From the NCBI GenBank assembly GCA_023653095.1, contig JAMNXP010000002.1, positions 1 to 64,000 of the forward strand: DNA of 64,000 bases. The letters run 5' to 3'. Each line of letters begins with the position of its first letter. Within the stretch, counting starts at the first letter, position 1. The stretch comes from Bacteroidia bacterium. GTDB lineage: Bacteria; Bacteroidota; Bacteroidia; NS11-12g; UBA955. The translations under genes and the position numbers were made by a program. The notes under the pieces were generated by a model. It had not been told where the DNA came from, searched no databases, and was given only the letters and a program-made list of their open reading frames with translations. Positions 7,261 to 63,991 of this stretch are shown piece after piece.

Positions 7261-7314
7261 CCGACCACCGATCACCGACCACCGATCACCGATCACTGAT
7301 CACTGATCACCGAC
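7261..7314. repeat. Heptanucleotide tandem array, GATCGGT type
   Basis: Eight consecutive 7-bp units of the form CCGATCA/CCGACCA/CTGATCA on the plus strand, that is GATCGGT-like on the minus strand. The array abuts the stop codon of the TonB-dependent receptor at 7315-7317 and reads in that gene's sense direction. The preceding 60 nt (about 7225-7260) contain degenerate CGGTTTTCG/CGGTTACCG words probably of the same origin. Confidence 0.9.
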
Positions 7315-9831
7315 CTAAAACTCTATCTTGTAATAGAACAACGGCAAGAATCCTAATTGATAATTTGGGCGTCTAAATGGAGGCTCGTTGATGAAGGTGT
7401 AGTTAAGGATGTTCTTTCTGTTAGTTACATTGATGAAGTCAAAGGCAATTTCATGAGAGATGCCTTTTCCATTAATGCGGTATGAAATACGAACGTCAAA
7501 TCGCATATAGGGTTTGTCAAAGCGTTCGGAATTCTTTTTGGCATCTAACTCTATGTACTCTCTTGCAGCTTGAGATGCAGTAGTATCGAATGGAGAATAT
7601 CTCCTTGCACCGGCAAAGGTGGCCTTTCCTCCAATGTTCAAGATGTTTTTATTTGAGAAAGTGAACTCTTTTGCGAATAGGGCGTTAACTGCATAATTGG
7701 TGTTGAAATCTGAACTCCTCCAAACCCCGTCGCTACCTTGGTATTTAGCGTCGAACACACTTCCCGAGAAAAGGTAATAAAATCCCTTAGAAAAGAAACG
7801 CTCCATCGTCAATTCGTATCCGTAGTTGAATCCAACGCCCTTATTTTCAAGCTTGTTTGGGAAGAAACGGCTGAATCCAGAGCCTGTGTTGGCTAAACTG
7901 AAGGATGATGGCATAACTTCCACGGGAATGTTCCACAAGTTTTGGTAGTAGGTTTCCATCTTGATGCGACTTCCGCGCTTGATGTTGTAATCCCATCCCA
8001 AAACAAAATGAGCACTCTTGGTCATATCCATGTCTAAGTTGTGCGGTTGGGGTTGTCCAGGGCGATTGTAAAAGTATAAATATTCGCTTTGAGTTTGTGC
8101 GTGAATTCCTGTACCAAAATTGAAACTGTTTTTCTGATCCATTCGGTACTGCAAAGAGAAACGAGGCAAGAACCAAGCAGCGTTTAAGTGCGATTCAGCT
8201 TTTGTGCCAGTAATTTCATTCAAAGGATTATAATTGATTCCAAATATTTGCGATTGAATACCCGCCACCATTAACAATTGCTTGTTGAATTTGTACTTGA
8301 ATTGTACGTATGGCATTATTAAGTTGGCATTGCCTGCCGCATTCCAACGAGTTGACCATGTCCAATAATTGGATAGTAATGGGTTGATGTTGAGATTGGA
8401 ATCCTGGAATGTGTAAATAAAGTGTCTGAATTGCACACCGTATTTCCATGATAATTGTGGACTAACACTATTATTAACAAAGAGGTGTGTTCCGATACTT
8501 TGAATTTTAAATGTGTAATCTAGATTTTTTACAGTATCATCGTTTCTGAAAATATGGAATAATTCGCCATCCTTTATAAATGAATCAATGATGGTTCTAA
8601 ATACCAATTCATGATAAGCATTTACAACTTGATGGTTATAACTAAATACTGCTTTGAAATAAGATTTTTTGTTCAATGGCTTTGTATATGATGAGCCTAA
8701 AACATACATCCTAGATCCAAAGTATTGATCCCTATCATTATCTCCATATAAATTGCGACTGGAAATTGAGTCTTTTGATATTATGATGTCGATGTTACTT
8801 TTCCCCCCTATCCCAAAGAAAGAAAGTGATGCATTCTTCTTCAAAGGGAATTTCAAGTGGAACGATGCATCTTGGTAATTTGGGATAGCGTCAGTTCCAA
8901 TAGGGATTTTCAACGCATTGAACATAGATAAGGTAGAGTAACGATAAGTAACCAAGAATGATGACCCTTTTTTTCTATTAAGGGGTCCTTCCGCTAAAAC
9001 GTCCCAACCCAATATACCTAACTGAGAACTAACCTCGAGTTTGCGGGTATTACCGGCTCTGAGTTTTAAGTCAAAGGCACCGGCAATGCTGTTTCCGTAT
9101 TCAGCGGGGAACGCACCCGTAAAGAAGTCGCTATTTCCTAAAATTTTGTTGTTGATGATAGACACAGAACCTCCAGTGGTACCCGGAATGGCAAAATGGT
9201 TGGGATTTGGAATGTCAATTCCTTCCATTCTCCAAAGTATTCCAGATGGAGAGTTACCGCGAACTACAATATCATTTCTCGAATCATCAGCACCTTGCAC
9301 ACCAGCGAAGTTCGATGCCATACGAGCTGGGTCTCCGCGACTTCCAGCGAAACGATCAGTTTCATCAACCGTGAACAAGCGTGCAGATACCAGCGCCGCA
9401 TCGTTGTTGGTTTGATGTCCACCGCGGCGTGTGATGTTAACTTCTGCCACACGTTCAATTTCTTGATCCATTTCAATATTGAGGGCAGCTTCTTTTCCTG
9501 AAGACAACATATATCCGCCTTGCGTGAATAGTTGGTAACCTTTTGCACTTACGCTGATGTTAATACGTCCGATAGGAACTTCCTCAAACGTAAATTTTCC
9601 TTTGGAGTCTGTTTTTGTTTTAAGGGATATTTCTTCGTTTGAGGTTGGAGATTTTCCCAATCCTAATGCCACTTCAGCATCTACAACGGGTTGCTGAGTT
9701 TCTTTATCAAGTACAATTCCAAAAACCGATTGAAATTGTTGCGTTTTGTTTTGAGCGAACAACGATGTTGTGAGAACGCTGAACAATAAAAAGGTAAGTC
9801 TGGGTTTTAAGGAGCAGTTTTTTATGGTCAT
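7315..9831 (-). CDS. TonB-dependent receptor with carboxypeptidase-like regulatory domain
   Basis: An 838-residue outer-membrane beta-barrel transporter energised by TonB/ExbBD. After a signal peptide ending LFAQ (about residue 26) come a carboxypeptidase-like beta-sandwich domain (GIVLDKETQQPVVDAEV, about 38-120), a plug domain (VRGNSPSGILWRMEGIDIPNP, about 190-210) and a C-terminal barrel ending in an aromatic F. No SusD-like lipoprotein lies beside it, so glycan import is not implied, and the substrate cannot be read from sequence. It is transcribed divergently from proteorhodopsin, and a heptanucleotide array begins at its stop codon. Confidence 0.9.
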   Translation of the reverse strand: MTIKNCSLKPRLTFLLFSVLTTSLFAQNKTQQFQSVFGIVLDKETQQPVVDAEVALGLGKSPTSNEEISLKTKTDSKGKFTFEEVPIGRINISVSAKGYQLFTQGGYMLSSGKEAALNIEMDQEIERVAEVNITRRGGHQTNNDAALVSARLFTVDETDRFAGSRGDPARMASNFAGVQGADDSRNDIVVRGNSPSGILWRMEGIDIPNPNHFAIPGTTGGSVSIINNKILGNSDFFTGAFPAEYGNSIAGAFDLKLRAGNTRKLEVSSQLGILGWDVLAEGPLNRKKGSSFLVTYRYSTLSMFNALKIPIGTDAIPNYQDASFHLKFPLKKNASLSFFGIGGKSNIDIIISKDSISSRNLYGDNDRDQYFGSRMYVLGSSYTKPLNKKSYFKAVFSYNHQVVNAYHELVFRTIIDSFIKDGELFHIFRNDDTVKNLDYTFKIQSIGTHLFVNNSVSPQLSWKYGVQFRHFIYTFQDSNLNINPLLSNYWTWSTRWNAAGNANLIMPYVQFKYKFNKQLLMVAGIQSQIFGINYNPLNEITGTKAESHLNAAWFLPRFSLQYRMDQKNSFNFGTGIHAQTQSEYLYFYNRPGQPQPHNLDMDMTKSAHFVLGWDYNIKRGSRIKMETYYQNLWNIPVEVMPSSFSLANTGSGFSRFFPNKLENKGVGFNYGYELTMERFFSKGFYYLFSGSVFDAKYQGSDGVWRSSDFNTNYAVNALFAKEFTFSNKNILNIGGKATFAGARRYSPFDTTASQAAREYIELDAKKNSERFDKPYMRFDVRISYRINGKGISHEIAFDFINVTNRKNILNYTFINEPPFRRPNYQLGFLPLFYYKIEF

Positions 9832-10189
9832 ATGCAGTAATAATACAAGTATATGAAAATTGAGGTTAGGAGTGTAAACTTTATGTAATGATTAGATAAT
9901 GTTGTGTAAGTGTGAAATTATTCGACGAAATACAAGTTTGAAATTTGGTTAATTGATTGAAATTCATTATATTTTGTTTCACTTTTTGCTTTAAAAACTC
10001 TCTACAAATGTTTAATGTATAAAATATTTGATTTTACATTTATGTCAATAAATACAGTAAAAATGCGCTTTTAAACTGTTTAACTTTTTGAAATTCTATA
10101 AATTGTACGTTTAAAGTTTTTATTCAAAGACTAAACCAAAAATATTTAACTTGGTTTATCATTGGACACCAACAAACAAACTATTAAAT
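9832..10189. promoter_or_regulatory. AT-rich divergent intergenic region between TonB receptor and proteorhodopsin
   Basis: About 360 nt without a gene. It is strongly AT-rich and must hold both divergent promoters. For the rhodopsin the best plus-strand match I see is TTTTTG (10085-10090), 15 nt, TACGTTTA (10106-10113), one mismatch from TAnnTTTG. For the receptor, the minus strand has a TATACTTG-like box about 20 nt before the start. No long inverted repeat or small gene is apparent. The promoter positions are tentative. Confidence 0.35.
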
Positions 10190-10939
10190 ATGTTAAGTTT
10201 ATTAAATGCAGGAGGTTCTGAAAAGTTATTAGAACTCTTCAATGCTGGAGACTTGAAGTCTTACACAGCATTCACGTTTTTCGTTGGCACCATGGCTATG
10301 ATGGCTGCCTCTGTATTCTTCTTCTTAGAAATGCGCAATGTTCCTGAGCGCTGGCGTACTTCGGTGTTAATCAGTGGATTAATCACCTTTATCGCTGCCG
10401 TTCACTATTATTACATGCGTGATTTCTTTACAGAAACAGGAACTAGTCCTACATTCTTCCGCTATGTAGATTGGTTGTTGACTGTACCTTTGATGTGTGT
10501 TGAGTTTTACTTAATCACTAAGAAAGCTGGTGCTAAAATTGGACTTCTTTGGAAGTTAATCTTTGCTTCTGTAATTATGTTAGTAACTGGTTACTTCGGT
10601 GAAGCTGTTGATCGTGGAAGCTCTGTATTGTGGGGAGTTCTTTCTGGAGCTGCTTACTTCTACATTGTTTACTTGGTATGGTATGGCGAAGTTGCTGCTT
10701 TGGCAAAGAACGCAGGCGAAAACGTACAAACTGCGGTTCGCGTTCTTGGCTGGTTCGTTTTGGTAGGTTGGGCGATTTATCCTTTGGGATACATCATCGG
10801 AACTCCAGGTGGATTATTCGGAGCTTTTGGTTCTAACGAGCCTAACCCTATGATGGATGTAGTTTACAACATTGGTGATGCTGTGAACAAAATCGGATTT
10901 GGATTGGTGATTTATGCTTTATCACAAAAAGAGAAATAA
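10190..10939 (+). CDS. Proteorhodopsin, green-absorbing proton-pump type
   Basis: A light-driven outward proton pump of seven transmembrane helices that binds retinal. The frame can open with TTG at 10151, but the ATG at 10190 gives a normal 249-residue protein. With that numbering: Asp94 (proton acceptor), Thr98 and Glu105 (proton donor) form the DTE motif in RYVDWLLTVPLMCVEFYL. Met102 sits at the spectral-tuning site, where Met or Leu gives green and Gln blue absorption. His72 pairs with the acceptor, and Lys234 in NIGDAVNKIGFG is the Schiff-base lysine. The gene stands alone, with an AT-rich leader region and its own terminator. No blh or carotenoid genes lie in the window, so retinal must come from elsewhere in the genome or from outside. 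Confidence 0.96.
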   Translation: MLSLLNAGGSEKLLELFNAGDLKSYTAFTFFVGTMAMMAASVFFFLEMRNVPERWRTSVLISGLITFIAAVHYYYMRDFFTETGTSPTFFRYVDWLLTVPLMCVEFYLITKKAGAKIGLLWKLIFASVIMLVTGYFGEAVDRGSSVLWGVLSGAAYFYIVYLVWYGEVAALAKNAGENVQTAVRVLGWFVLVGWAIYPLGYIIGTPGGLFGAFGSNEPNPMMDVVYNIGDAVNKIGFGLVIYALSQKEK

Positions 10940-10960
10940 TATTTTCATCACTTAAAAGAG

Positions 10961-10990
10961 AAAGGCTCTCAGAAATGAGAGCCTTTTTTT
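10961..10990 (+). terminator. Rho-independent terminator after proteorhodopsin, probably bidirectional
   Basis: A perfect 11-bp stem (AAAGGCTCTCA / TGAGAGCCTTT) closes a GAAA tetraloop at 10972-10975 and is followed by a T run. The reverse strand also shows an A/T-flanked stem, so it can end the convergent RNase G transcript. Confidence 0.9.
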
Positions 10991-12536: not shown

Positions 12537-12556
12537 AGCAAGATGTTAATTGCTAA

Positions 12557-12646
12557 TTATTTTTTCTTGTGACGGTTCTTGCGCAAACGCTTTTTACGTT
12601 TGTGAGTCGCAATTTTATGTCTTTTTCTTTTTTTACCGCTTGGCAT
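12557..12646 (-). CDS. 29-residue AURKAIP1/COX24-domain (bS22/mS38-like) protein
   Basis: A very small basic protein beginning MPSGKKRKRHKIATHK and ending RHKKK. More than half of its residues are Lys, Arg or His. This matches the tiny conserved Bacteroidota proteins annotated as AURKAIP1/COX24-domain, relatives of mitochondrial mS38 and mycobacterial bS22, which bind the small ribosomal subunit. The ATG at 12646 and TAA at 12557-12559 are clear, and it lies 20 nt upstream of RNase G. A ribosomal role is inferred from the family, not shown here. Confidence 0.85.
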   Translation of the reverse strand: MPSGKKRKRHKIATHKRKKRLRKNRHKKK

Positions 12647-12669
12647 AGTCTTTATTTCTTTAAGGTGTG

Positions 12670-13482: not shown

Positions 13483-13505
13483 TTAAAAAATAGGTAAATG
13501 CCTGA

Positions 13506-13805: not shown

Positions 13806-13854
13806 GATTCAAGGTGCAAAATAAGTAGATAAACACGTTTTTTGCACTATCAAG

Positions 13855-14853: not shown

Positions 14854-14879
14854 TCTATACCTAACAACAACTTAACTCA

Positions 14880-15251: not shown

Positions 15252-15265
15252 TTTTGCTTGAAATC

Positions 15266-19102: not shown

Positions 19103-19116
19103 TATATTATCTAATT

Positions 19117-38712: not shown

Positions 38713-40041
38713 ATGAAAAAAATCATTTACACTTTGTCGCTCGCAACCTTAGCCTTTTTGGCTTCTTGCGGAGAAGAAGACACAAAAATTGACGATGGCA
38801 AACAAGATAGCGTTGTTACCATCTCAGATGCCACAACTGAATTAAAGGGTTACATGCGTGGAACCCTCAAAGCGGGTAAAACCTATTACTTGATTGCTGA
38901 CATGATTGTACCTGAAAACGAAACCGTTACCGTTGAGCCAGGAGTAACTGTTATTGCAGTTGGAGACGGTACAGCTATTGGTCCTGAAATTACTGTAGGT
39001 GGTACTTTTGCTGCGTTGGGTACAAAGGCTCAACCTATCAAGTTTACAGTCCCTGCTGATAAAAATGATATCAGCAACATTTTTGCTGGACTTTGGGGTG
39101 GATTTCAATGCAAGACCACTGCAAAAGCATTGGTATTGAAGTGGTGTCAAGTGGAATATTTAGGCGGTGAGGGCGGACCTGCTTCTCCGCGCGCGGGAAA
39201 AACGAGATATGGTTTCTCTTCTTTAGACCCAAATACTGAAATTGTTGTAGAAGATTGTTGGTTCCGCGGTTCTGTAGATGATATGTTCCGTCCCAATGGT
39301 GGTAAAATCCATATGGTTCGCAACGTATTTGAATTCGCTGGCGAAACAGGTGGAGATGGCTTGAACATCAAAGGTGGTACACTTGGTAATATAGCATACA
39401 ACTTATTCATTGGTGGTGCCACAAACGCTTACAAAGTTTCCAACGAAGGTTCTTCAACGGTTCAAACCAACGTGAACGTATACAACAATATCGCAATTAA
39501 CTGCGGATACCGTCGTGCAGGTAACACCCGCGGAGCAAACATCAACTACGAAGTGGGTGCTCGTGGATATGCTTACAACAACATCATTGTAAACTGCAAG
39601 CGCGGCATGCGTGTTTTGGAGGACGGTGATTTGCAAAACATCAAATTTGATAACAACCTTTATTATGCAGCACACCAAGCTATGGTTGACGAGTTCATCC
39701 CAACCGATGCCACTACGCCAACTAAAGCTGTATTGGGAAGTAATAACATCATTGGTAAAGCAGGTGAAAACGATCCTATGTTTGCGAATGTCAATGTAAC
39801 TCAATTTGCATTGGCTGATTTCGAAGCAGGTAGTACACAGCCTCGTGCGATGAACGAAAAAGGCACCAACGATTTCCGTTTGAAATCAGGTTCACCTTGC
39901 ATTGGAAAAGGTAAAACTGATTTTTCACCAGTATCTGTACAGTGGGTTCACGCAACCGGCGCATTGGCCCCAAGTACTGCTTCTCCCAATAAAGATTTGG
40001 GTGCATTCCCAACAGATAATTCTGGGAATCAGTATTTTTAA
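38713..40041 (+). CDS. Parallel beta-helix lipoprotein
   Basis: A 442-residue lipoprotein: the signal peptide ends LAFLASC (Cys19) and is followed by an Asp/Glu-rich linker, a feature of surface-exported Bacteroidota lipoproteins. The body repeats VEPGVTVIAV, EYLGGEGG, NVYNNIAINCG and NNIIVNCKRGM, the Asn ladders and short strands of a right-handed beta-helix as in pectate lyase folds. A catalytic triad is not evident, so it may bind rather than cleave a polymer. It starts 1 nt after the receptor stop, so it is tightly co-translated. Confidence 0.78.
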   Translation: MKKIIYTLSLATLAFLASCGEEDTKIDDGKQDSVVTISDATTELKGYMRGTLKAGKTYYLIADMIVPENETVTVEPGVTVIAVGDGTAIGPEITVGGTFAALGTKAQPIKFTVPADKNDISNIFAGLWGGFQCKTTAKALVLKWCQVEYLGGEGGPASPRAGKTRYGFSSLDPNTEIVVEDCWFRGSVDDMFRPNGGKIHMVRNVFEFAGETGGDGLNIKGGTLGNIAYNLFIGGATNAYKVSNEGSSTVQTNVNVYNNIAINCGYRRAGNTRGANINYEVGARGYAYNNIIVNCKRGMRVLEDGDLQNIKFDNNLYYAAHQAMVDEFIPTDATTPTKAVLGSNNIIGKAGENDPMFANVNVTQFALADFEAGSTQPRAMNEKGTNDFRLKSGSPCIGKGKTDFSPVSVQWVHATGALAPSTASPNKDLGAFPTDNSGNQYF

Positions 40042-40210
40042 GGTGGTGGTCGGTTTTCGGTGATCGGTGATCGGTGATCGGTGATCGGTGATCGGTGATC
40101 GGTGATCGGTGATCGGTAATCGGTGGTCAGCCGTCAGCGGTCAGCGGTCAGCGGTCAGCGGACAGCGGACAGCGGATTTCTAAACCCTCAACTCTCAACT
40201 CTCAACTCTA
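40042..40210 (+). repeat. Heptanucleotide tandem array, GATCGGT to GGTCAGC to CAACTCT
   Basis: Directly after the beta-helix lipoprotein stop codon. TGATCGG is repeated eight times without error (40061-40116). It then passes, still in 7-bp register, through TAATCGG, TGGTCAG and CCGTCAG into CGGTCAG (three copies) and CGGACAG (two copies). After a short gap come about three CTCAACT units (about 40186-40208). The register kept across word changes is direct evidence that the words derive from one another. Confidence 0.95.
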
Positions 40211-40228
40211 GAGATTATATTTGAAATT

Positions 40229-41188
40229 GTGTACCAAATTGTTAAAATAAGCATTGCCGCGACCTTGGTCGCGGCAATTGCGCATTGTGAGAAGCCCGCA
40301 GTTTTTGGTCCTCCATTAATTGGAGACCCGTGGGCTGAATCGTATACCGAGTTTGATTATTCCGTTAGTGACGTTTCGCAGGATAGTTCGTTTGGGCCAT
40401 TCACTCAAATGGGTATGCTTGAGAATCCGTCCCTCAAAGAAAATTCTGGACTAGCCCCTTGCTCTTACCGTAGTGATTGGTTGTACGGACATAATGACGG
40501 TGGAGATTTTAACCGCTTTTTTGTTTTCGATACTACCGGAAAGAATGTTCGTCATATAACGGTTCCGGGATTTTCAAACCGTGATTGCGAGGACATGGGT
40601 ATTGATCAAAACCCCATCGATGGAAAGAAATATCTGTATCTCGCTGATTTTGGGGACAACAATGCTGTTTATCCGGAGATTTACGTTTATAGGTTTGCTG
40701 AACCTATTTTGTCATCCAATGCAGGCGATACCTCAGTTGAAACTGCCGAAAAGCTCACTTTTGTTTATCCCGATGGACCCCGCGACGCGGAAACCTTGTT
40801 GGTTGATCCTTGGAGTCACCATTTGTATATTGTCACTAAGCGAGAGTCAAAGGCTCGAGTTTATAAAGCTGAATATCCATTTAAATTAGCTGCAGGTGAA
40901 ACCAAAATCACCCTACAGAAGGTCGCTCAATTGCCTTTTAGTGGACTGGTTGGAGGAGACATCAGTGCTGATGGCAAGCACATTTTAATCAAAAATTACG
41001 GACAAATTTTCTATTGGACCCGCAACGACGGCGAACCGGTAACGGTTGCCTTGAGCCGCAAGCCCAAAGTGGTTCCATACAAAATAGAAACCCAAGGCGA
41101 AGCCGTTTGCTGGTCAAATGATTCAAGGAGCTACTATACAGTGAGTGAAGGTAAAGCCGCGCCCATTTATAAGGGTGGGTTTCGTTAA
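40229..41188 (+). CDS. Predicted lipoprotein with beta-propeller-like repeats
   Basis: A 319-residue protein with GTG start at 40229 and a lipoprotein-like signal peptide (ISIAATLVAAIAHC, Cys20). The body contains repeated blades such as ENSGLAPCSYRSDWLYGHNDGG, YLYLADFGDNNAVYPEIYVYRF and HHLYIVTKRESKARVYKAEYP, suggesting a WD/SdiA-regulated-like propeller outside the cell. I do not recognise a specific enzyme family. It lies between two heptanucleotide arrays and is not obviously part of a larger operon. Confidence 0.7.
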   Translation: MYQIVKISIAATLVAAIAHCEKPAVFGPPLIGDPWAESYTEFDYSVSDVSQDSSFGPFTQMGMLENPSLKENSGLAPCSYRSDWLYGHNDGGDFNRFFVFDTTGKNVRHITVPGFSNRDCEDMGIDQNPIDGKKYLYLADFGDNNAVYPEIYVYRFAEPILSSNAGDTSVETAEKLTFVYPDGPRDAETLLVDPWSHHLYIVTKRESKARVYKAEYPFKLAAGETKITLQKVAQLPFSGLVGGDISADGKHILIKNYGQIFYWTRNDGEPVTVALSRKPKVVPYKIETQGEAVCWSNDSRSYYTVSEGKAAPIYKGGFR

Positions 41189-41189
41189 A

Positions 41190-41280
41190 TAGCGGACAGC
41201 GCTCAGCATTCAGCGGTCAGCAGTCAGCGGTCAGCGGTCAGCAGTCAGCCGACAGCCGATAATCGATAACCGATAACCGT
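41190..41280. repeat. Heptanucleotide tandem array, GGTCAGC type with degenerate GATAACC end
   Basis: Between convergent genes. Units CAGCGGT/CAGCAGT/CAGCGGA run from just after the stop at 41186-41188. Toward the tonB-like gene they change to CCGATAA/TCGATAA words. Less regular than the 40.1-kb array but clearly of the same 7-bp family. Confidence 0.85.
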
Positions 41281-41294: not shown

Positions 41295-41738
41295 TCACTG
41301 CATATTAAACATCAACGGTATCTCGAAATAACTATTGATGGGAAGTCCGTCTTTTTTGCCGGGATTCCAGCGTTTTGATCTTTTAAGGATTCGGATGGTT
41401 TCATGCGTGAATTCAGGGCATGCAGCAACTGTTTTCATGGGCTTAAAATTGCTCAATTCTCCGTTCTTGTTCACCGTGAAGCGAACAACCACTTTTCCGC
41501 TGATTCCTTCATCCATGCATCTTGTGGGGTATTTTACCTGATCGCTGATGAATCGATAGAATTTCTGCTCTCCTCCGGGGTAATTTGCTCGCTCAAAAGA
41601 GGGAGAATTCATTGCGTCTAAATCAATGACATCTTTATCATAAACTGCTGCTTCGGCCTGTGGCTTGGGTGAGTCTAATTCTTGAGCATGAGTCGAAGAC
41701 AGAATAAATATCCCCAGAAAAAAGAGAAACGTTTTCAT
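41295..41738 (-). CDS. Small periplasmic TonB C-terminal domain protein
   Basis: A protein of about 147 residues (ATG at 41738) with a cleavable signal peptide ending STHAQ and one TonB C-terminal domain (YPTRCMDEGISGKVVVRFTVNKNGEL, about residues 65-90; RSKRWNPGKKDGLPINSYFEIPLMF at the end). It lacks the N-terminal anchor and the Pro-rich spacer of a true energy transducer, so it is more likely a soluble TonB-domain protein with a Cys pair (CMDEG / ACPEF). A heptanucleotide array follows its stop codon. Confidence 0.82.
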   Translation of the reverse strand: MKTFLFFLGIFILSSTHAQELDSPKPQAEAAVYDKDVIDLDAMNSPSFERANYPGGEQKFYRFISDQVKYPTRCMDEGISGKVVVRFTVNKNGELSNFKPMKTVAACPEFTHETIRILKRSKRWNPGKKDGLPINSYFEIPLMFNMQ

Positions 41739-41787
41739 CGAACAAATATAATATAAGCATTTCAAAACCTTTAAAATTGCTACTTGT

Positions 41788-42551: not shown

Positions 42552-44690
42552 ATGAAAAAATCTTTACTGTTTTTAATTTTTTATATGGCTGTAAGCCATA
42601 TTTATGCCCAGAATCGCGCGCTGCATTTTGACGGTGTAGATGATTATGTAGAATTATCAAACCACACGGGCTTAAGTGGTCCTAAATACATAACCATTGA
42701 ATCTTGGATTTACGTAGATAATTTCAACAGTTCACCATGTAATGTCTGCGCACCTATTGTTTGGCATCAAGATGACGCCTACAGATTTGGAACGGGAAAT
42801 GCTAAGGGAATTCATTTTGATATCAGCGATGGCTCCAATACTCAGTCTTTCAGTATTTCTAGTGGACTCAATCAAAATCAATGGCACCATATTGCAGGTA
42901 CTTTCGACGGAAGTTGGATGAGGATTTATCTGGACGGTGTTTTGAAAGACTCTTCCTCGGCAAAGTTTAGTGCCTTAGGATACAATTCAAGTTCAACTCC
43001 GATTTGGATTGGAGACCCAGTTACGGGTTACGGTGGAATCATTGAAGAGACCCGCATTTGGGATTATGCTAGAACAAAAAAACAAATTCAAGATGGGATG
43101 TATAAAAAATTCCCCAAATCCGAAAAGGGATTGCTACTGCAATTGAGCTATGAGGATGGCGTGCCGTATAAAAAGAATACCAGTATAACTTCTGTCAAGG
43201 ATGATACGCCCAACGGAAATAATGGAAAATTGAACAATTTCTACCTAGATGATTCTACATCGAATTTTGTCATAGGTAGGTCGTTTTGTGACTCTACCGT
43301 TTATGGCAAAGCTACCGTTACAGCATGTGATAAATATACTTTTCCCTCGAAAAAAAGGTTCGCATCCAAAACAGGGACATATAGCGATACGATAGTCTCA
43401 GTGAATGGCTGCGATTCGGTAATTACCTTCGATGTGACCATTAAAAAGAGCAGTTCTTATACCATCAGAACGGTAGTGTGTGATTCTTTTGAGAGTCCCA
43501 CTTTCAAAGGTTCGCACTACTATAAATCTGGAAAGTATCAAGAAAAAACCAGCAACTACTTGGGATGTGACTCTATCATCACCATTTTCTTGACGGTCAC
43601 TTCCAAAGCAGAAACTAATTTCAAGTATTCTGCGTGTTATTCGGTAAAATTGAACGGCCCATCGGGCAGAACCGTGACTAAGTCAGGTACTTATTATGAC
43701 ACTCTCAAGGGTTGGGGTGGATGTGACTCCATTCTAATTCATACGGTAACCATCAAGGATAGAAGCTATGCCAAACGCCGACTAGATTTCTGTCGATTCG
43801 TAGTTTGTCCTACAGATAAAGAGGTTATTTATCGTTCCGAGGGACTTTATTACGATACCATTACCAATTATTTGGGCTGCGACAGCATCATCGAATACGA
43901 AGTAAAGTCCACCAAATCTACCGGAAACATCAGCGTGAGAACCTGTGGAAGTTATAAAAGTCCAAGCGGAGAATACACTTGGAACGTGTCTGGAAAATAC
44001 CGCGATACGTTGATAGGAGGAAATTATAAGGCATGTGATAGTTTCATCAACATTGATTTGACCATCATCAAGCCAACGGCTGTGAATTTGTCTGAAAAAG
44101 GCTGCGGAATGTTTGTGACTCCTCAAGGTAAGAAGGTGACGAAATCGGGCAAGGTAGTTGAAACGCTCAAGTCAAGAGAGGGCTGCGACAGCGTCATTTA
44201 CACCATTGATGTTACCATTGTTGATGTGAATACATCGGTTTCGAGGGATTGGAATACATTAACGGCTTCAGCAACAGGAGCGGCATTCCAATGGTTGGAT
44301 TGCAATCAATCACAATCACCCATTACCGGTGAAACCAACGCATCGTTTTCCCCAACAGGAAACGGGAAGTTTGCCGTTGAAGTTAAGCAAAACGGATGTA
44401 CGGATACATCGGTATGCTTGGTTTTTGCGTATACCGGATTGAGTGACATGGGAATTCAACCAATGAATATTTTACCTAATCCTAGTACAGGTCAATTCAC
44501 CTTGGAGGTGCCAGATTTATTGCATCATGCAGAAATGAAGGTTTATAGTTCATCTGGGCAAGTGGTTTATATTGAAGACTTAAAGGAATTCAAAAAAGGA
44601 TCATTTACATTGAAATTAAATCCTGGAGTTTACACGGTCTTGATTCAATCAAATTCGGGTAAAACTCAAGGCAGAATAGTTTTTGAATAG
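42552..44690 (+). CDS. LamG-domain T9SS cargo with five GCDS repeats
   Basis: A 712-residue secreted protein: signal peptide ending IYAQ (residue 20), a LamG/concanavalin-like domain (about 21-200; LHFDGVDDYVELSNHTG, NQWHHIAGTFDGSWMRIYLDG), then about five repeats of roughly 63 residues, each ending in a GCDS(V/I)I motif (about 245-555). An Ig-like segment follows, and a type A T9SS sorting domain closes the protein (NILPNPSTGQF ... TVLIQSNSG). It is probably a cell-surface carbohydrate- or protein-binding adhesin. It has no co-directional partner nearby. Confidence 0.85.
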   Translation: MKKSLLFLIFYMAVSHIYAQNRALHFDGVDDYVELSNHTGLSGPKYITIESWIYVDNFNSSPCNVCAPIVWHQDDAYRFGTGNAKGIHFDISDGSNTQSFSISSGLNQNQWHHIAGTFDGSWMRIYLDGVLKDSSSAKFSALGYNSSSTPIWIGDPVTGYGGIIEETRIWDYARTKKQIQDGMYKKFPKSEKGLLLQLSYEDGVPYKKNTSITSVKDDTPNGNNGKLNNFYLDDSTSNFVIGRSFCDSTVYGKATVTACDKYTFPSKKRFASKTGTYSDTIVSVNGCDSVITFDVTIKKSSSYTIRTVVCDSFESPTFKGSHYYKSGKYQEKTSNYLGCDSIITIFLTVTSKAETNFKYSACYSVKLNGPSGRTVTKSGTYYDTLKGWGGCDSILIHTVTIKDRSYAKRRLDFCRFVVCPTDKEVIYRSEGLYYDTITNYLGCDSIIEYEVKSTKSTGNISVRTCGSYKSPSGEYTWNVSGKYRDTLIGGNYKACDSFINIDLTIIKPTAVNLSEKGCGMFVTPQGKKVTKSGKVVETLKSREGCDSVIYTIDVTIVDVNTSVSRDWNTLTASATGAAFQWLDCNQSQSPITGETNASFSPTGNGKFAVEVKQNGCTDTSVCLVFAYTGLSDMGIQPMNILPNPSTGQFTLEVPDLLHHAEMKVYSSSGQVVYIEDLKEFKKGSFTLKLNPGVYTVLIQSNSGKTQGRIVFE

Positions 44691-44847
44691 AGTGGAGAGT
44701 TTAGAGTTTAGGGTTTAGGGTTTAGGGTTTAGGGTTTAGGGTTTAGGGTTTAGGGTGTAGAGGTCGCTCAACTCTAAACTCTCTACTCTAAACCGATCAC
44801 CGATCACCGATCACCGATCACTGATCACCGATCACCGATCACCGTCA
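44691..44847. repeat. Heptanucleotide arrays: TTTAGGG block, CAACTCT block and GATCGGT block
   Basis: This 157-nt gap between two convergent genes is filled by 7-bp words. GGGTTTA occurs six times perfectly (44711-44752), flanked by GAGTTTA and GGGTGTA variants. A degenerate CAACTCT/AAACTCT/CTACTCT stretch follows (about 44768-44791). Then ACCGATC-type units run to 44847, which on the minus strand read GATCGGT directly from the stop codon of the START-domain gene. Confidence 0.93.
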
Positions 44848-45513
44848 TCAAAACCGTTCTTTAATATCGGGGTGCTTGAAGCTGCTGTGTTTCTGCACCT
44901 CGGTATTTTTGAGTTTTTTGATGCTTTCGTAGGGGCCTTCCGATATGAACATGTTGAGAATCCATGCGGGAACGCTTCCCCCGGGATCAGACTTCAAATA
45001 ATAGGTACACTCAATTTTATTTTTAGCTACAGGTAAAAGCTCCCAAATCGCGATGTTGTTTTTGACGCGCACTACATTTTCAACGGTTTTAAGATAGTTA
45101 TGTTGTGAACTTGAATATACCGTAGTTTTGAAGGTTTTCGGGTCTTGACTTAATGCTATGTGCATGACTACATCGCGGTCATTCACGGGCCAGGGTGCGT
45201 CAACGTAGTGATAAGCGAGGAATTCCTTCTCATTGATTTTTTTGACCAGCTTAGACTTAGACGTTGAATACACCCAATTTTTGTAGTTGTCATAATCAAT
45301 CAGGGCACCTACAATGGCATTGAGAGAGCTTTCAATGGTAACAATGGCCTTGATTTCTTTAAAAGGTGTTCCTTCTTGCGAACGGGTATAAACGGTGATT
45401 CCATCGCCTTCGCGACTTTTGTGCCATTCTTTTTCTTTCTGGGGATGCTGATTCGTTTTTGATGGGAAAAAGGCACTGATCCAACTCAAACACAGCAACA
45501 ATCCAATTTTCAT
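44848..45513 (-). CDS. START-domain lipid-binding-like protein
   Basis: A 221-residue protein with an N-terminal signal-like segment (MKIGLLLCLSWISAFF) and a START/polyketide-cyclase-like lipid-binding domain: EWHKSREGDGITVYTRSQEG, VGALIDYDNYKNWVY, YHYVDAPWPVNDRDVVMH. Such proteins bind hydrophobic ligands in the periplasm; the ligand is unknown. It follows the VGINT-type secreted protein gene after 4 nt, so the two form a unit. Confidence 0.85.
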   Translation of the reverse strand: MKIGLLLCLSWISAFFPSKTNQHPQKEKEWHKSREGDGITVYTRSQEGTPFKEIKAIVTIESSLNAIVGALIDYDNYKNWVYSTSKSKLVKKINEKEFLAYHYVDAPWPVNDRDVVMHIALSQDPKTFKTTVYSSSQHNYLKTVENVVRVKNNIAIWELLPVAKNKIECTYYLKSDPGGSVPAWILNMFISEGPYESIKKLKNTEVQKHSSFKHPDIKERF

Positions 45514-46268: not shown

Positions 46269-46342
46269 GGGCCTATAGCTCATTCGGTTAGAGCAACTGA
46301 CTCATAATCAGTAGGTGCTTGGTTCGATTCCAAGTGGGCCCA
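46269..46342 (+). tRNA. tRNA with CAT anticodon (Met elongator or Ile2)
   Basis: A full cloverleaf: acceptor GGGCCTA pairs with TGGGCCC, D-arm GCTC/GAGC, anticodon stem ACTGA/TCAGT with loop CTCATAA, T-arm CTTGG-TTCGATT-CCAAG and discriminator A; CCA is not encoded. The CAT anticodon fits elongator methionine or the lysidine-modified isoleucine tRNA. The loop and GGGCC acceptor look more like tRNA-Ile2, but identity cannot be fixed without comparison with the other CAT tRNAs of the genome. Confidence 0.95.
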
Positions 46343-46345
46343 CAG

Positions 46346-46383: not shown

Positions 46384-46513
46384 GTCTATGGTCTTTGGCT
46401 GACGGCTGAGCTGACGGCTGACGGCTGACGGCTGCCCGCTGAAACAAACTACACACTAAACTCTCCGCTATACACACCAATCCTAAGCTCTAAACTCTCA
46501 ACCCTCAACTCTA
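46384..46513. repeat. Degenerate heptanucleotide arrays: GGCTGAC block and CAACTCT-like block
   Basis: GGCTGAC units (46398-46430, about five, one shortened) are followed by GCTGCCC/GCTGAAA variants and a degenerate AAACTCT/CAACCCT/CAACTCT stretch to 46513. They fill part of the 448-nt gap between the tRNA terminator and the exopolysaccharide locus. Confidence 0.8.
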
Positions 46514-53450: not shown

Positions 53451-53452
53451 CA

Positions 53453-54415: not shown

Positions 54416-54416
54416 G

Positions 54417-55460: not shown

Positions 55461-55471
55461 AACAATAAAAT

Positions 55472-56449: not shown

Positions 56450-56453
56450 TAGT

Positions 56454-57206: not shown

Positions 57207-57225
57207 TCATCTTAATTCACAGAAA
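57198..57225. terminator. Possible bidirectional hairpin between the GT2 and MazF genes
   Basis: TTTCTGTG (57198-57205) pairs with CACAGAAA (57218-57225) around a 12-nt loop. It covers both stop codons. There is no long T run on either side, so termination is uncertain. Confidence 0.3.
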
Positions 57226-57547: not shown

Positions 57548-57550
57548 ATT

Positions 57551-57982: not shown

Positions 57983-58043
57983 GTTGTAAAATTAACTATT
58001 ATTTGTATTTATCGAGGAACCACTCCATCATTTTCACCTTCAA

Positions 58044-59819: not shown

Positions 59820-59858
59820 GAATAGTGCGAATTTGTATGTCTATAAAAAAGTTTATTC

Positions 59859-59893
59859 TACGTATTGATTTATATAATTAATACGTATATTTG
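59859..59893 (+). promoter_or_regulatory. Leaderless promoter with overlapping operator, first VapBC module
   Basis: TTG (59865-59867), 18 nt, TATATTTG (59886-59893), a perfect -7 box ending 4 nt before the ATG at 59898. An inverted repeat TACGTATT (59859-59866) / AATACGTA (59880-59887) with 13-nt spacer covers both promoter elements, the classic place for self-repression by the antitoxin. Confidence 0.6.
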
Positions 59894-59897
59894 ATTT

Positions 59898-60143
59898 ATG
59901 GATACAAAGCTTACCTTGAAATTAAGTCAGGAGGTAATTGAGAAGGCCAAAGAATACGCAAAATTCAATCAAGTTAGTTTGTCAAAGTTGATTGAGAATT
60001 ATTTGGAAAATATTACCTCAAAAATGGAGCAACCTTATGAAATAACGCCCTTGGTACGCAGTTTATCGGGTGTGATCAAGGAAAACTCTCGGGATGACCA
60101 TAAACAGGAGTACGCGAAATATTTGGAGGAGAAATACAAGTAA
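59898..60143 (+). CDS. VapB-like antitoxin (DUF6364 ribbon-helix-helix type)
   Basis: An 81-residue antitoxin. The N-terminal MDTKLTLKLSQEVIEKAKEYAKFNQVSLSKLIENYL is a ribbon-helix-helix DNA-binding domain of the DUF6364 group; the C-terminal tail (SGVIKENSRDDHKQEYAKYLEEKYK) would wrap the PIN toxin. Its stop overlaps the toxin start as TAATG. An inverted repeat overlaps its promoter. Confidence 0.88.
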   Translation: MDTKLTLKLSQEVIEKAKEYAKFNQVSLSKLIENYLENITSKMEQPYEITPLVRSLSGVIKENSRDDHKQEYAKYLEEKYK

Positions 60144-60559
60144 TGGAGCGAATATTTGTTGATACAGATGTTTGTTTGGACCTTTTGACAGGACGGCAAC
60201 CACATAATATTTTTGCAGCGCAGCTCTTTTCTCTTGCAGATTTAAAACAATTAGAGCTATGTGTTTCCTCCTTGGCTTTTTCTAATCTGAATTACATTCT
60301 GAGTAGGCAGTATTCTCAAGCAGAATCGCGGAAAATTTTACTAAAATTTAAGACTTTGGTTACGGTTTTGGCTGTTTCTGAGAAGACGGTTGAATTAGCT
60401 TTATTATCGGATTTTAAAGATTTTGAGGATGGCTTGCAACATCAAACAGCACTTGAATTTGGAATAGAAGCCATTATTACTCGTAACTTAAAAGATTACA
60501 AGCGGGCGGATACTATTGTTATGACTGCGGAACAGTATTTGTTATCGAGAAATTTATAG
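60143..60559 (+). CDS. PIN-domain ribonuclease toxin (VapC-like)
   Basis: A 138-residue PIN domain with the acidic metal site: Asp8/Asp10 in FVDTDVCLDLL, Asp/Glu in DFKDFEDGLQHQTA (about residues 93-106) and the C-terminal AIITRNLKDYKRAD. It cleaves RNA and is neutralised by the preceding antitoxin. Its last 6 nt overlap the next toxin gene tail-to-tail. Confidence 0.9.
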   Translation: MERIFVDTDVCLDLLTGRQPHNIFAAQLFSLADLKQLELCVSSLAFSNLNYILSRQYSQAESRKILLKFKTLVTVLAVSEKTVELALLSDFKDFEDGLQHQTALEFGIEAIITRNLKDYKRADTIVMTAEQYLLSRNL

Positions 60560-60934
60560 GATTGTTAATCCATAACTTTCAAAAGTCTTGTCTTGGGTTA
60601 TTAAGTTGAAATCATGATTTAAACACTGGCTGATTATGATTCTATCAAATGGATCAGTGTGGTGAAATGGGAGGTTTTGAAGCTTCAGGAAGTCTGAATT
60701 TTGGATAGGTAAAATTGCCCAGCCGCTTCGTTCAATATAGAAGAATAAATCTGTAAGCGGTATGGGTAATATTAATTTACCAATACTGATTTTGATGGTT
60801 AATTCCCAAATAGATGCTTGGCTGATAAATATGTGATTTTGCGTGTCTTCGATGGCTGTTCTAATCTCATGGGTGATTTTGTGGTTCCCCTCAAGTATCC
60901 AAATTAATGTATGAGTATCTAATATTAGATTCAT
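60554..60934 (-). CDS. PIN-domain toxin of the second VapBC module
   Basis: A 126-residue PIN protein of the 'DTHTLIW' subgroup: NLILDTHTLIWILEGN (residues 2-17), ISQASIWELTIKISIGKL, and PFHHTDPFDRIIISQCL (about 89-105) with the catalytic Asp residues. It starts 4 nt inside its antitoxin gene. It is distantly related to, not a copy of, the convergent PIN toxin beside it. Confidence 0.9.
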   Translation of the reverse strand: MNLILDTHTLIWILEGNHKITHEIRTAIEDTQNHIFISQASIWELTIKISIGKLILPIPLTDLFFYIERSGWAILPIQNSDFLKLQNLPFHHTDPFDRIIISQCLNHDFNLITQDKTFESYGLTIL

Positions 60935-61302
60935 GGGGTGTATTCTTTGAATTCATCTAAGGGAGCATCAAAATCTTCAGCCATGAATATTTGCCCTTTT
61001 AATAATCCCCACAAACTTGGTCTTGGTTGACTAGAGTTTTGATAAATCAGAAACTGAGTGAATTCAAGGACTTGAATTTGCTTTTGCAGAGATAATTTTT
61101 CGAGACCAGTTGTGACATCTGTAGCAATGCTACTGACAGAGTTGTAAGCGAGTAAAGGCTCTGAAGCAATTTTTGTTTTATTGTAATTAATGAGTAAATC
61201 CTCAATTTTTTCGCTGAGGCTTTTGCCTTCCTTCATTGACCAGAATTTCGACTTTTGATGGACGATGTCGTCAATGGTAATGTTGATGCGTTTTTTATTC
61301 AT
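60931..61302 (-). CDS. Composite antitoxin: RHH (DUF6364-like) plus DUF2281-like tail
   Basis: A 123-residue antitoxin. Residues 1-40 look like a ribbon-helix-helix DNA-binding unit (RINITIDDIVHQKSKFWSMKEGKSLSEKIEDLL). Residues about 68-123 match the DUF2281-type antitoxin tail (LSLQKQIQVLEFTQFLIYQ then SLWGLLKGQIFMAEDFDAPLDEF), normally found as a separate small antitoxin. The two halves are joined by a Ser/Thr linker. A leaderless promoter and an inverted repeat lie upstream. Confidence 0.85.
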   Translation of the reverse strand: MNKKRINITIDDIVHQKSKFWSMKEGKSLSEKIEDLLINYNKTKIASEPLLAYNSVSSIATDVTTGLEKLSLQKQIQVLEFTQFLIYQNSSQPRPSLWGLLKGQIFMAEDFDAPLDEFKEYTP

Positions 61303-61306
61303 GCAT

Positions 61307-61344
61307 CAAAAATAATCAATGTGTATTAATCTAAAAAATACACA
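61307..61344 (-). promoter_or_regulatory. Leaderless promoter with inverted-repeat operator, second VapBC module
   Basis: Minus-strand TATTTTTG (61314-61307), a perfect -7 box ending 4 nt before the ATG at 61302. The inverted repeat TGTGTATT (61320-61327) / AATACACA (61337-61344) with 9-nt spacer occupies the -33 region. The half-sites share GTATT/AATAC with the first VapBC operator. Confidence 0.55.
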
Positions 61345-61347
61345 CTT

Positions 61348-62922
61348 TTACATTTGCAATTTTTGCAAAACTTGGTAGTCAATTTTACTGAAATGTCTTG
61401 GGTCACGAGGTATTTTGAGCAATTTAATATCGCCGTCAGGCAGTCCCAAGGAACGCAAATCTTCTTCAACAGGAGAGAAGCATCCGAGTTTGGGGTAGGC
61501 CAAATGTTTGAAAGACTTACATCTATTGAGCTCTAAGAAATAAACGAGTTTGTTGTTGACTTTCAATACGGTACCCAAAATCACTCCCGGAATGTGTCGG
61601 AGCTGATATTCGAGGATAAAGGGGTAGAGTGGAACTCCATTCCAATCAATGATTTGTTGGCAACGACCCAATAAATGAAGTTGTCCGTGCCGGTCAATAT
61701 AGCCTGAATCGCCGGTTCGGTGAAATAATTTATCATCAATGCATATCTTGGAATCAGCTTTTTGTTGTTCTGCTTGGGGACCAAAATAATCTTTAACCAC
61801 ATGATTTCCGGCAACGGCAATTTCGCCAATCTGACCCGTTTCAAGTACCTGTTGTGAGTGGATATCTAAAATTTTAACGACAGTACAAGATTCTATTTTT
61901 CCAACACAAAGTCCATCTTCAAAAGTGGAATCGGCGGTCTGAATGAGTGTGCGTGCATTGATGCTGGAAATAGGTTCTGCCTCGGTACTACCGTAAACAA
62001 TTTCTACCCTGGAGTTTGGAAATGCGGTGAGCCACAATTTTGCTGCCGATGGAAAAACAGGAGCACCTCCGCTGAAAATTTCACGCACCGAACTTAAGTT
62101 GGTTGAGATGTTTTGAGATAGGCTTTTAATACATAGTTGGTCAATGAAATACGGTGAAGCGATGATGCGATTAACGCGAAATTTCTTAATGGTTTTAATA
62201 ATCTTTTGAGCCTTTAAATTATCGGGTTTTTTGCTGCTCCATTTTACAATAACACTGCTAATTCCTAGACCTAGATTGATCATCAATACAATGGGCAATA
62301 CAGGCATGTCTATTGTATCATCGCGGGTTTGGAGGGTATTTTGGAGGGCTAAAAATTGTTGATGAAGAATTTCGTGAGTGCGTATAACTGCTTTAGGTGT
62401 GCCAGTGCTTCCGGTGGTGAACGTGATCAGTGCAGTGTCATTCGAGGCATCGATGGCTACCGCATCGTGGTAGAGGCTTTTCTTAGCGTTCTTTATTTCT
62501 CGCGTGGTAATTCTGATGGGTATTTTTCTAATTTCCTTGATTAAATGTCCCAAGGAAGCAGCCAACGAAATGCCAATAAATCCTTTGCAGTCAGCTATTT
62601 GGCAGGAAGTTTTTAAGCGGTTAAGTTTGGCCCATTCATCGATAAAAACGGCGGTGCAACCCATTTGAAACAAGGCCAATACGCTGACATATAAATCAAT
62701 GCTCATGGGTACGAAGACCAAAACGCGGTCACCTGACTTTAGGCCTCGTTCTACAAATAATGAATGTGCGGCATCAATTTTATGTCGAAGTTCACCGAAG
62801 GTTACTTTTGAATGTTCATCGGCGATGGCTAGGCGTTTGGAATTCATAATCGCGGCAACACGGAAATGTTCCATGATGTTTCCTTTGGTTAAGGTCTTTG
62901 CGATATGAATGATGTTGGACAT
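61348..62922 (-). CDS. AMP-forming acyl ligase (fatty-acid CoA ligase-like)
   Basis: A 524-residue adenylate-forming enzyme (ANL superfamily). Motifs: P-loop-like TFTTGSTGTPKAV (about residue 165), EIFSGGAPVFPSAAKLW, VYGSTEAEPIS (about 310), FHRTGDSGYIDRHGQLHLLGR (about 405-425) with the adenylate-binding Asp, and a C-terminal lysine in HFSKIDYQ. Residues about 30-130 follow the usual ANL start. The YGSTEAEP motif resembles OleC-like and other fatty-acid ligases. It is 1 nt downstream of the GNAT-like gene; the two may add or transfer an acyl group. Confidence 0.85.
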   Translation of the reverse strand: MSNIIHIAKTLTKGNIMEHFRVAAIMNSKRLAIADEHSKVTFGELRHKIDAAHSLFVERGLKSGDRVLVFVPMSIDLYVSVLALFQMGCTAVFIDEWAKLNRLKTSCQIADCKGFIGISLAASLGHLIKEIRKIPIRITTREIKNAKKSLYHDAVAIDASNDTALITFTTGSTGTPKAVIRTHEILHQQFLALQNTLQTRDDTIDMPVLPIVLMINLGLGISSVIVKWSSKKPDNLKAQKIIKTIKKFRVNRIIASPYFIDQLCIKSLSQNISTNLSSVREIFSGGAPVFPSAAKLWLTAFPNSRVEIVYGSTEAEPISSINARTLIQTADSTFEDGLCVGKIESCTVVKILDIHSQQVLETGQIGEIAVAGNHVVKDYFGPQAEQQKADSKICIDDKLFHRTGDSGYIDRHGQLHLLGRCQQIIDWNGVPLYPFILEYQLRHIPGVILGTVLKVNNKLVYFLELNRCKSFKHLAYPKLGCFSPVEEDLRSLGLPDGDIKLLKIPRDPRHFSKIDYQVLQKLQM

Positions 62923-62923
62923 T

Positions 62924-63991
62924 TTATAGATCTATTCCGAACAGTTGGTATTCTGAAATGATTTCGGCTTCCAAAGATTCAGAGCACCTCAACGATGCTG
63001 CATCTATGTGCATGAATGAGTGAACTACTTGAAAAATGCCCAGTTTTTTGGCTTTTTGTTGTAAAATATCTGTCATCACCAAGCCCAATCCACCAAGTCT
63101 AAAATCGGGTTTTCGAGCTACAGTTTTCATGATGATGGAATTATTTTCAATGTCTAAGTAGGCAAAGACAAATCCTTGCAAATTCCGTTCCAATTCTGCC
63201 AAAAGCACCCATTCGGGATCAATTAAATGTTTGATTTCGTTGTATTTGAGTAAAAAGTCCTTCCAATGTATGGGTGTGTAGTAGGGATTGTGTTGGAAGG
63301 CCACGAGGCTGAGCTCGTGGATATTTTGAAGTTCTTGTTCCCAAAGATTTAGGTTTAGATGCCTGAAACTAATGCCTTGAATTTCCAATTGACTTTTCCG
63401 TTCATCCAATCTCGAAATACTTCCAGGAATTTCGTGCATGAGGGTACTTACATAACGTTCAATGGGTTTGAAACCCGCAATTTCAAACAATTCAATCAGT
63501 TCAGGTTGATATGGGAGATCCCCCAAAAAATTGCGATGAGAAGCGGTTTTTAAACGATAATCGTTCCAAGTGCTACCGTTCATGGGGCAAACGATGCGGT
63601 TGTAGCCGTTGTGTTTGGACCAGGTTATCAGGTTTCGGAGGTCAGTGGTTGGTGATCGGTGATCGGTGATCGGTGAGCGGTGATCGGTGGTCAGTGATCG
63701 GTTTTCAGTGTTCGGCTGAGGGCTGAAAGCTGACGGCTGCCGGCTTTTGACTGAAATGGCTAGTGTTTTAGAATTTAGGGGATGGAGATGGATGGTGGTC
63801 GGTGAACGGTGATCGGTGGTCAGTGGTCGGCTGTCGGCTGTCGGCTGCCCGCTGCCCGCTGAAAGCTGATTTCTGATGTCAATCACAATGGTGTTGTAAA
63901 AGTAACCGTTGTCTTGAGGGCGAAGTTCTGACATCAGGTCTGACTGTTCTGTTAGTGTGGGAACCACCTGTGAACATCTTCTGGTGACCAT
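62924..63991 (-). CDS. GNAT-like acyltransferase with translated heptanucleotide repeats (5' end possibly beyond window)
   Basis: A protein of about 355 residues when started at the ATG 63991, but the frame is open to the window edge, so the true start may lie outside. The C-terminal half is a GNAT acetyltransferase (VLLAELERNLQGFVFAYLD, RKPDFRLGGLGLVMTDILQQ). The central part has ICPMNGSTWNDYRL-like IVCPMNGSTWNDYRL typical of related proteins. Residues about 39-66 and 80-118 are encoded by heptanucleotide arrays and read as TDHRSPI-type seven-residue repeats. The gene precedes the acyl ligase with 1-nt spacing. Confidence 0.75.
   Translation of the reverse strand: MVTRRCSQVVPTLTEQSDLMSELRPQDNGYFYNTIVIDIRNQLSAGSGQPTADSRPLTTDHRSPTTIHLHPLNSKTLAISVKSRQPSAFSPQPNTENRSLTTDHRSPITDHRSPTTDLRNLITWSKHNGYNRIVCPMNGSTWNDYRLKTASHRNFLGDLPYQPELIELFEIAGFKPIERYVSTLMHEIPGSISRLDERKSQLEIQGISFRHLNLNLWEQELQNIHELSLVAFQHNPYYTPIHWKDFLLKYNEIKHLIDPEWVLLAELERNLQGFVFAYLDIENNSIIMKTVARKPDFRLGGLGLVMTDILQQKAKKLGIFQVVHSFMHIDAASLRCSESLEAEIISEYQLFGIDL
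63638..63750. repeat. Heptanucleotide array inside the GNAT-like coding sequence (first block)
   Basis: GGTGATCGGTGATCGG-type units, with GAGCGGT and GGTCAGT variants, run from about 63640 to 63712, then GGCTGAG/AGCTGAC words to 63750. On the coding (minus) strand this is the ACCGATC orientation, which contains no stop codon in any frame. Confidence 0.9.
63793..63875. repeat. Heptanucleotide array inside the GNAT-like coding sequence (second block)
   Basis: GATGGTGGTCGGTGAACGGTGATCGG-like units (split here as GGTCGGT, GAACGGT, GATCGGT, GGTCAGT) are followed by GGCTGTC and GCTGCCC repeats to about 63865. The coding strand again reads the stop-free complement. Confidence 0.88.

Follow-up and report, generated by a model that had tools for sequence, protein, structure and literature searches.

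The stretch of DNA analysed here (the window) comprises the first 64,000 nucleotides of contig JAMNXP010000002.1, the second contig of a draft genome from a Bacteroidia bacterium (assembly GCA_023653095.1), and the elements in question are tandem arrays of 7-bp units (heptamer arrays) at six loci (Table 1). These arrays belong to a family that is dispersed through the genome and recurs in a sister species, where the array sites are largely retained while the words that fill them are almost wholly replaced. Proteins encoded in the window carry Por secretion-tail and TonB domains, which we take to be a sign of Bacteroidota. A first-pass annotation had described the six loci as 7-bp tandem arrays, and a shift-match scan over periods 2-30 bears this out, with 8 period-7 runs that all fall at these loci. 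Only periods 14, 21 and 28 yielded further runs, 10 dinucleotide shuffles of the window gave zero runs at any period, and Tandem Repeats Finder was in accord with the scan. The change of one word into another in constant register, reported at 40061-40172, is present. The locus at 63638-63875 consists of two arrays, which sit inside a minus-strand open reading frame (ORF).

Table 1. Heptamer arrays of the window; gene positions are from our own ORF calls
Coordinates	Strand	Words	Setting
7258..7317	minus (G-rich strand)	GGTGATC/GGTGGTC	starts at 3' end of minus ORF 7315-9831
40044..40217	+	two-ended; GGTGATC, then AGCGGTC/AGCCGTC, then CTCAACT	starts directly after stop codon of plus-strand ORF 38713-40041
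41191..41280	.	AGCGGTC/AGCAGTC, then CCGATAA	between converging ORFs 40229-41188 (+) and 41295-41765 (-)
44687..44847	.	two-ended; GTTTAGG left, CTCAACT-type words, GATCACC right	whole space between stop codons of ORFs 42552-44690 (+) and 44848-45513 (-)
46397..46513	.	shorter; GGCTGAC, then degenerate CTCAACT-type words	behind tRNA-Met 46269-46343
63638..63871	+	two arrays: GGTGATC; GGTGGTC to GTCGGCT	within minus-strand ORF 62924-64969

The genome of the window (G000) is a 2.04-Mb draft in 14 contigs that is 74.8% complete. We sampled 0.86 of these 2.04 Mb, together with 1.24 of about 2.5 Mb from the sister species (G002), whose assembly is 99% complete. Some G000 stretches were picked for pattern matches and some G002 stretches for synteny, so that array densities are not unbiased. 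The G000 sample holds 59 period-7 array clusters, 8451 bp in total, and at most 5 clusters at any other period up to 35, multiples of 7 aside; the G002 sample holds 51, with at most 3 at any such period. Three tandem copies of GGTGATC (up to 2 mismatches) match 156 times forward and 180 times in reverse in G000, counts that include overlapping matches separately and are not array counts, while the reversed pattern matches 0 times. Arrays therefore extend far beyond the six places, as the proposal of a genome-wide family had anticipated. Array-poor and array-rich stretches both occur on one 654-kb contig of G000. Positions 80001-380000 of contig C1 (L033-L040) form an array-poor, low-GC block with one period-7 run in eight 20-kb stretches, and masked GC and arrays per 20 kb have Spearman coefficients of 0.55 and 0.60 in the two species.

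The most widespread words among the 59 G000 clusters are GGTGATC (40), AGCCGTC (23), AGCGGTC (21), GGTCTTT (16) and AACTCTC (11). Those frequent among the 51 G002 clusters are ACCGGGT (19), CGGGTTT (18), ATCGGGT (12), CCATAGT (11) and CTCTAGT (9). Among the trinucleotides of distinct words, GGT/ACC ranks first in enrichment in G002 and second in G000, but a universal GGT anchor of the array words is no more than suggested by this: the RGT/ACY share is 0.757 in 37 query-free clusters of other genomes and 500 letter shuffles reach 0.811, the words moreover being related by descent. The G000 vocabulary also includes TTTAGGG, present in about nine copies at window positions 44699-44760. This word is also the plant telomere repeat, a match that is most likely coincidence.

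Array sites persist while their words turn over

Array sites persist across species divergence. One window protein is 82% identical between G000 and G002, and syntenic blocks are 67-84% identical at the DNA level. When 237 orthologous gene junctions are compared, 13 have an array in both genomes, 2 in G000 only, 2 in G002 only and 220 in neither (Fisher p 1.3e-17); junctions of co-directional genes alone give 6 in both, 0 and 0 one-sided and 160 in neither. Counted by cluster, both flanks map to sampled G002 sequence for 17 of the 59 in G000, and for 14 of the 17 an array is present there, two of the 14 mapping onto a single G002 site. The reverse placement finds an array at 14 of 16. Since 39 of the 220 empty junctions are at least 100 bp long in G000, gap length alone does not define array sites. 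Where the two species disagree (four junctions), the genes of the array-free genome overlap by about 4 bp in three cases and lie 3 bp apart in the fourth, and both genes are full length at those read in detail.

Within the window, the junctions of the arrays at 7258..7317 and 41191..41280 also carry arrays in G002, made of other words. The locus at 44691-44847 consists of two opposed arrays (GTTTAGG, then GATCACC) between converging stop codons, and its G002 counterpart is a pair of genes that overlap by about 4 bp, without an array; of the 20 loci compared, only those of G000 and G002 have the neighbouring gene next to its partner. The G002 gene orthologous to ORF 62924-64969 has unrelated sequence at the array position and no array. 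The two ORFs differ in length by 132 nt, a multiple of three.

The words at these sites are not retained. Word overlap in the 14 orthologous array pairs is 0.007, 0.003 and twelve zeros, with a mean of 0.0008, as compared with 0.177 between arrays within G000, 0.071 within G002 and 0.010 for arbitrary G000-G002 pairs. Orthologous arrays are thus no more alike than random pairs from the two species, while arrays within one genome are alike: the sites stay and the vocabulary turns over in concert. A few clusters are written in the words of the other species. For example, the G000 clusters at C1:8541 (L031), C3:55074 and C3:55993 (the latter two within L049, C3:55074-56142) have at least 96% G002 words, and the G002 cluster at C10:12141 (L258) consists entirely of G000 words. 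Comparison of 7 kb around the two C3 clusters with G002 gave 71 match places, every one within arrays, and the genes around the pair had no G002 match among the matches listed (40 of 148 candidates scored). These clusters have the look of transferred loci that brought their arrays along, or of relics. Separately, two G000 stretches (L047:17096-19215 and L048:1-4006) are 97-98.5% identical to G002 contig C19 (L207), where other listed matches are 64-89% identical; rRNA and recent transfer are candidate readings.

Words also follow one another in a conserved order. With strand fixed by the words themselves and random reversal as the null, the summed order imbalance in G000 is 531 as compared with 239 +/- 35 (0 of 1000 reversals as high), and in G002 it is 210 as compared with 151 +/- 18 (p at most 0.002). 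In 20 of 20 arrays GGTGATC is on the 5' side of AGCGGTC, and in 16 of 16 it is on the 5' side of AGCCGTC, the order of GGTGATC and AGTGATC being looser (19 of 27). Along the G-rich strand the words form a series of small steps: GGTGATC, AGTGATC, AGCGATC, AGCGGTC, AGCCGTC. One ordered path at unlinked loci points to a common composite ancestor or a common source.

Polarity and placement at gene ends

The arrays are polar, and their G-rich strand reads inward from the flank. The left half is G-richer than the right in 49 clusters vs 8 in G000 (of 57 decided, p 1.4e-8) and in 39 vs 7 in G002 (of 46 decided, p 9e-7). When two-ended clusters are classed by their outer 35 bp, 37 have the inward-reading arrangement (+-) and 0 the opposite one (-+), while array-free intergenic regions divide into 45 and 36. 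Classed by halves rather than edges, the counts are 12 and 0 in G000 and 17 and 1 in G002. The pattern is unchanged under reverse complement, and replication direction therefore cannot be its source; it is also present between co-directional genes. Among arrays with a single orientation, 32 of 35 are closer to the gene that flanks the G-rich strand at its 5' side, 9 of 44 having been excluded for a lack of a called neighbour or a position within an ORF, and between co-directional genes this flank rule holds in 12 of 14.

Arrays frequently start at a stop codon and are enriched between converging genes, where they occupy 24 of 105 junctions in G000 (24 of 571 for other pairs) and 20 of 161 in G002 (21 of 819). 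Counted by cluster, 30 of the 59 in G000 and 23 of the 51 in G002 lie between converging genes. Only 5 and 6 clusters, respectively, lie inside ORFs and 3 and 4 between divergent genes. Intergenic clusters of external genomes divide 13 to 0 in favour of +-, and in polarity the external loci split 83 vs 53 over all array lengths and 27 vs 5 for arrays of at least 90 bp. These external loci were selected by the word GGTGATC, many matches being coding, and 48 clusters within ORFs were excluded from the flank analysis.

Occurrence in other bacteria and known heptamer repeats

Heptamer arrays are genuine, occur widely and have been under-described as a kind of repeat. Within 57 relatives searched, three copies of GGTGATC were found in 1 genome, G000 itself; a generic pattern, five GGTs each seven bases from the next, matched 8. 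These include the congeners G002 (280 forward and 355 reverse matches) and G003 (five matches), as well as five genomes outside the genus with words of their own, such as GGTAAGT in G014. Only G002, 1 of 13 congeners, is likewise array-rich; the same scan found no comparable array in stretches of five array-poor relatives in or near the genus, with the exception of two weak AT-rich runs of 28-32 bp. The generic pattern occurs in 161 of 395 genomes sampled from Bacteroidota, with some matches on very large contigs; G169 and G192, which belong to a single genus, are both rich in it. The exact GGTGATC triplet, searched in one genome per species, occurs in at least 103 stretches from many phyla, many of which sit in longer heptamer arrays with related words and some of which are coding. 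Seven stretches (L174-L180) from six viral-collection contigs also carry the triplet, and one of them, L175, has 5 period-7 runs in 12.9 kb.

Bacterial heptamer repeats have been known for decades, and we know of no accepted origin for them or reason for the number seven. The STRR elements of cyanobacteria are dispersed tandem heptamers, and in this they resemble the present arrays. The cyanobacterial heptamer repeats had been named as the closest parallel, a comparison that we keep as right. STRR are mentioned as three heptanucleotides in Calothrix in PMC4692102. The remark that no named equivalent is known in Bacteroidota needs correcting, given the pattern's frequency in this phylum and the TAACTGA direct repeats published for Beggiatoaceae, Cyanobacteria and five Bacteroidetes (MacGregor, PMC4679880). 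Like the present arrays, TAACTGA repeats are intergenic, sporadic by species and sometimes mixed with other heptamers, with no evident mechanism of transfer. Reverse-complemented and rotated, TAACTGA becomes AGTTATC, one letter from GGTTATC of the present arrays. It is outside the 25 commonest words of G000 and of G002, which were the words compared. Unlike the present arrays, which abut gene ends, TAACTGA repeats lie just upstream of start codons in the main genome described (PMC4679880).

Closer in their placement are the GGGNATC repeats of Xanthomonas and Nostoc (Rehm et al., PMC4692102), which are dispersed heptamers, mostly intergenic and depleted between divergent genes, with the G-rich strand sense near stop codons and antisense near starts, and with paired sites that are oriented convergently. 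The edge rule is thus already published for those repeats, together with convergent pairs, site conservation and heptamer over-abundance, the last with a proposed link to the DNA contact of the polymerase (PMC4692102). The arrays of G000 and G002 likewise have a unit of exactly seven, are dispersed, mostly intergenic and rare between divergent genes, and have the corresponding polarity (32 of 35 read away from the nearer gene; 37 +- and 0 -+). Their words differ, as GGGNATC is fitted by ATCGGGT, which when rotated is GGGTATC, and this word is in 2 of 59 G000 clusters and is one of several main words in G002 (12 of 51 arrays). In Xanthomonas and Nostoc there is, moreover, one word type per organism, common to two Xanthomonas species (PMC4692102), whereas here several ordered words occur per genome with near-zero sharing between sister species at common sites. 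The new part is therefore a vocabulary that is shared, ordered, polar and almost wholly replaced between sister species at fixed sites. Neither concerted word turnover nor conserved word order was found among the papers listed by searches of an open-access library, in which subscription papers are mostly absent.

Possible origin of the arrays

As with the satellite DNA of eukaryotes, something homogenises short repeats throughout these genomes, and it does so with a constant strand polarity. A sister-species pair with the same junctions but almost no common words makes the question of heptamer origin testable. We tentatively favour a dispersed polar heptamer satellite whose arrays may be copied anew from each other wherever 3' ends are exposed, and whose length shifts in sevens by slippage; here we infer breakage, copying between arrays and the participation of a polymerase. 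A break or gap at a gene junction would expose a 3' end, which would be extended along the G-rich strand with another array of the family as template. Copying could proceed by microhomology or template switch, and annealing would probably occur at a short motif common to the arrays, GGT for instance. Extension from one flank would give a single-orientation array and extension from two flanks a head-to-head array, like fused telomeres. Slippage and unequal exchange could later change array length in multiples of seven, and continual re-copying from the current pool would change the vocabulary of the whole genome. Copying at exposed 3' ends would account for shared words, order, polarity and turnover. 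Each array would then mark an exposed and extended 3' end, and the arrays would form a natural archive of breaks repaired at gene ends; if a templated polymerase is responsible it would represent a new bacterial enzyme activity.

Several results weigh against re-copying. No copying event has been observed, and long shared variant strings are in no excess over an order-7 Markov simulation, as 13 pairs of G000 loci share strings of at least 35 bp vs 12 and 14 simulated, and 3 pairs of G002 loci vs 3 and 4, with a null that is conservative as it was trained on the same arrays. Word sharing does not fall with distance in either genome (0.137 under 10 kb and 0.182 between contigs in G000; 0.079 and 0.071 in G002), where local recombination predicts an effect of closeness; local spread was rejected on this ground. 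Unit purity and vocabulary show no gradient from flank to interior. Ku was not found in any of 14 congeneric genomes, so joining is not by the classical end-joining route. The flank rule is weak in genomes from outside the genus, where it holds in 36 of 58 cases (p 0.043) and, at gene starts, in 7 of 15.

It is rather unlikely that the arrays are selected gene-end elements, such as terminators or RNA-binding or quadruplex sites, in which a G-rich periodic inward strand would be selected and the words would be immaterial. Site conservation, enrichment between converging genes, and polarity with the flank rule speak for such selection, as does the formation of quadruplexes in vitro from repeats of this type in Xanthomonas and Nostoc (PMC4692102). 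However, array halves fold no better together than re-paired halves do (z +1.1, n=11; z +0.8, n=19) and the switch point has no hairpin, on which grounds selection for a hairpin or terminator was rejected. Additionally, 22 of 22 empty converging junctions, like most of the other orthologous ones, manage without arrays, and selection alone does not explain shared words and order.

Local replication slippage with point mutation at each site and no exchange between sites, as the first-pass annotation had supposed, is an unlikely explanation. It would readily give the in-register change of words and the higher-order 14- and 21-bp repeats, and a published account of the preference for seven proposes that it is connected with polymerase slippage (PMC4692102). 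Changes of array length probably require slippage, and to that extent the supposition survives as an explanation of length change in sevens. It leaves unexplained why unlinked arrays share words at any distance and in one order while orthologous arrays do not, and it gives no reason for 37 +- arrays vs 0 -+. MutS is present in G000 and G002, so the arrays do not stem from a simple loss of mismatch repair; this candidate was set aside, MutS_V having been found in 9 of 9 genomes searched.

Addition of heptamers to 3' ends by a telomerase-like, trans-acting enzyme with its own changing template is improbable. The G-rich 3' strand, head-to-head two-ended arrays, sharing of words in trans at any distance, species-specific vocabulary and conserved order would all fit. 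A bacterial reverse transcriptase, DRT10, is also reported to make tandem-repeat DNA from a non-coding RNA template, and the parallel with it and with telomerase extends to short tandem repeats on a 3' strand and realignment of the template via a short shared motif (PMC12632851, a preprint). DRT10 differs in that its cDNA is protein-primed and has 9-nt repeats in the described example (PMC12632851), and RVT_1 was found in only 1 of 14 congeneric genomes, G000, and not in the array-bearing, 99% complete G002. The single G000 reverse transcriptase (L280:182-1060, minus strand, 292 aa, near a contig end on C11) best matches a type VI retron reverse transcriptase in PADLOC. Several words and ordered composites would in addition demand several or changing templates, and an age gradient from flank to interior is lacking. 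As a long shot, trans-acting addition of repeats by a vocabulary-bearing system, telomerase-like but without a recognisable RVT_1, might heal exposed 3' ends at junctions with species-specific G-rich heptamers; word order inward from the flank would then be a genome-wide record of change in the source over time.

Insertion of arrays by a mobile element of REP/RAYT or insertion-sequence type is very improbable. The arrays are dispersed and intergenic, four junctions differ between the sister species, and a non-heptamer motif, TCACGCTTCGCTAGGACT, occurs at 7 places in the G000 sample, all of which could be expected of such an element. However, Y1_Tnp was not found in G000 (74.8% complete) or G002 and was detected in 1 of 14 congeners (G012), an 18-mer count gave no repeated flank common to arrays beyond the heptamers, and word turnover at retained sites differs from insertion. 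The initial judgement that spread by a mobile element is not shown still holds. An assembly or binning artefact is hardly credible even with G000 being an incomplete draft, as G002 and many more genomes of the phylum, all assembled independently, carry arrays too (some with matches on very large contigs), heptamer repeats have been published from closed genomes (PMC4692102), and a single 654-kb contig holds both array-rich and array-poor stretches. The motif TCACGCTTCGCTAGGACT is a second dispersed motif of G000 in its own right, lying outside the arrays and in some cases near them, with examples in stretches L032, L047 and L273.

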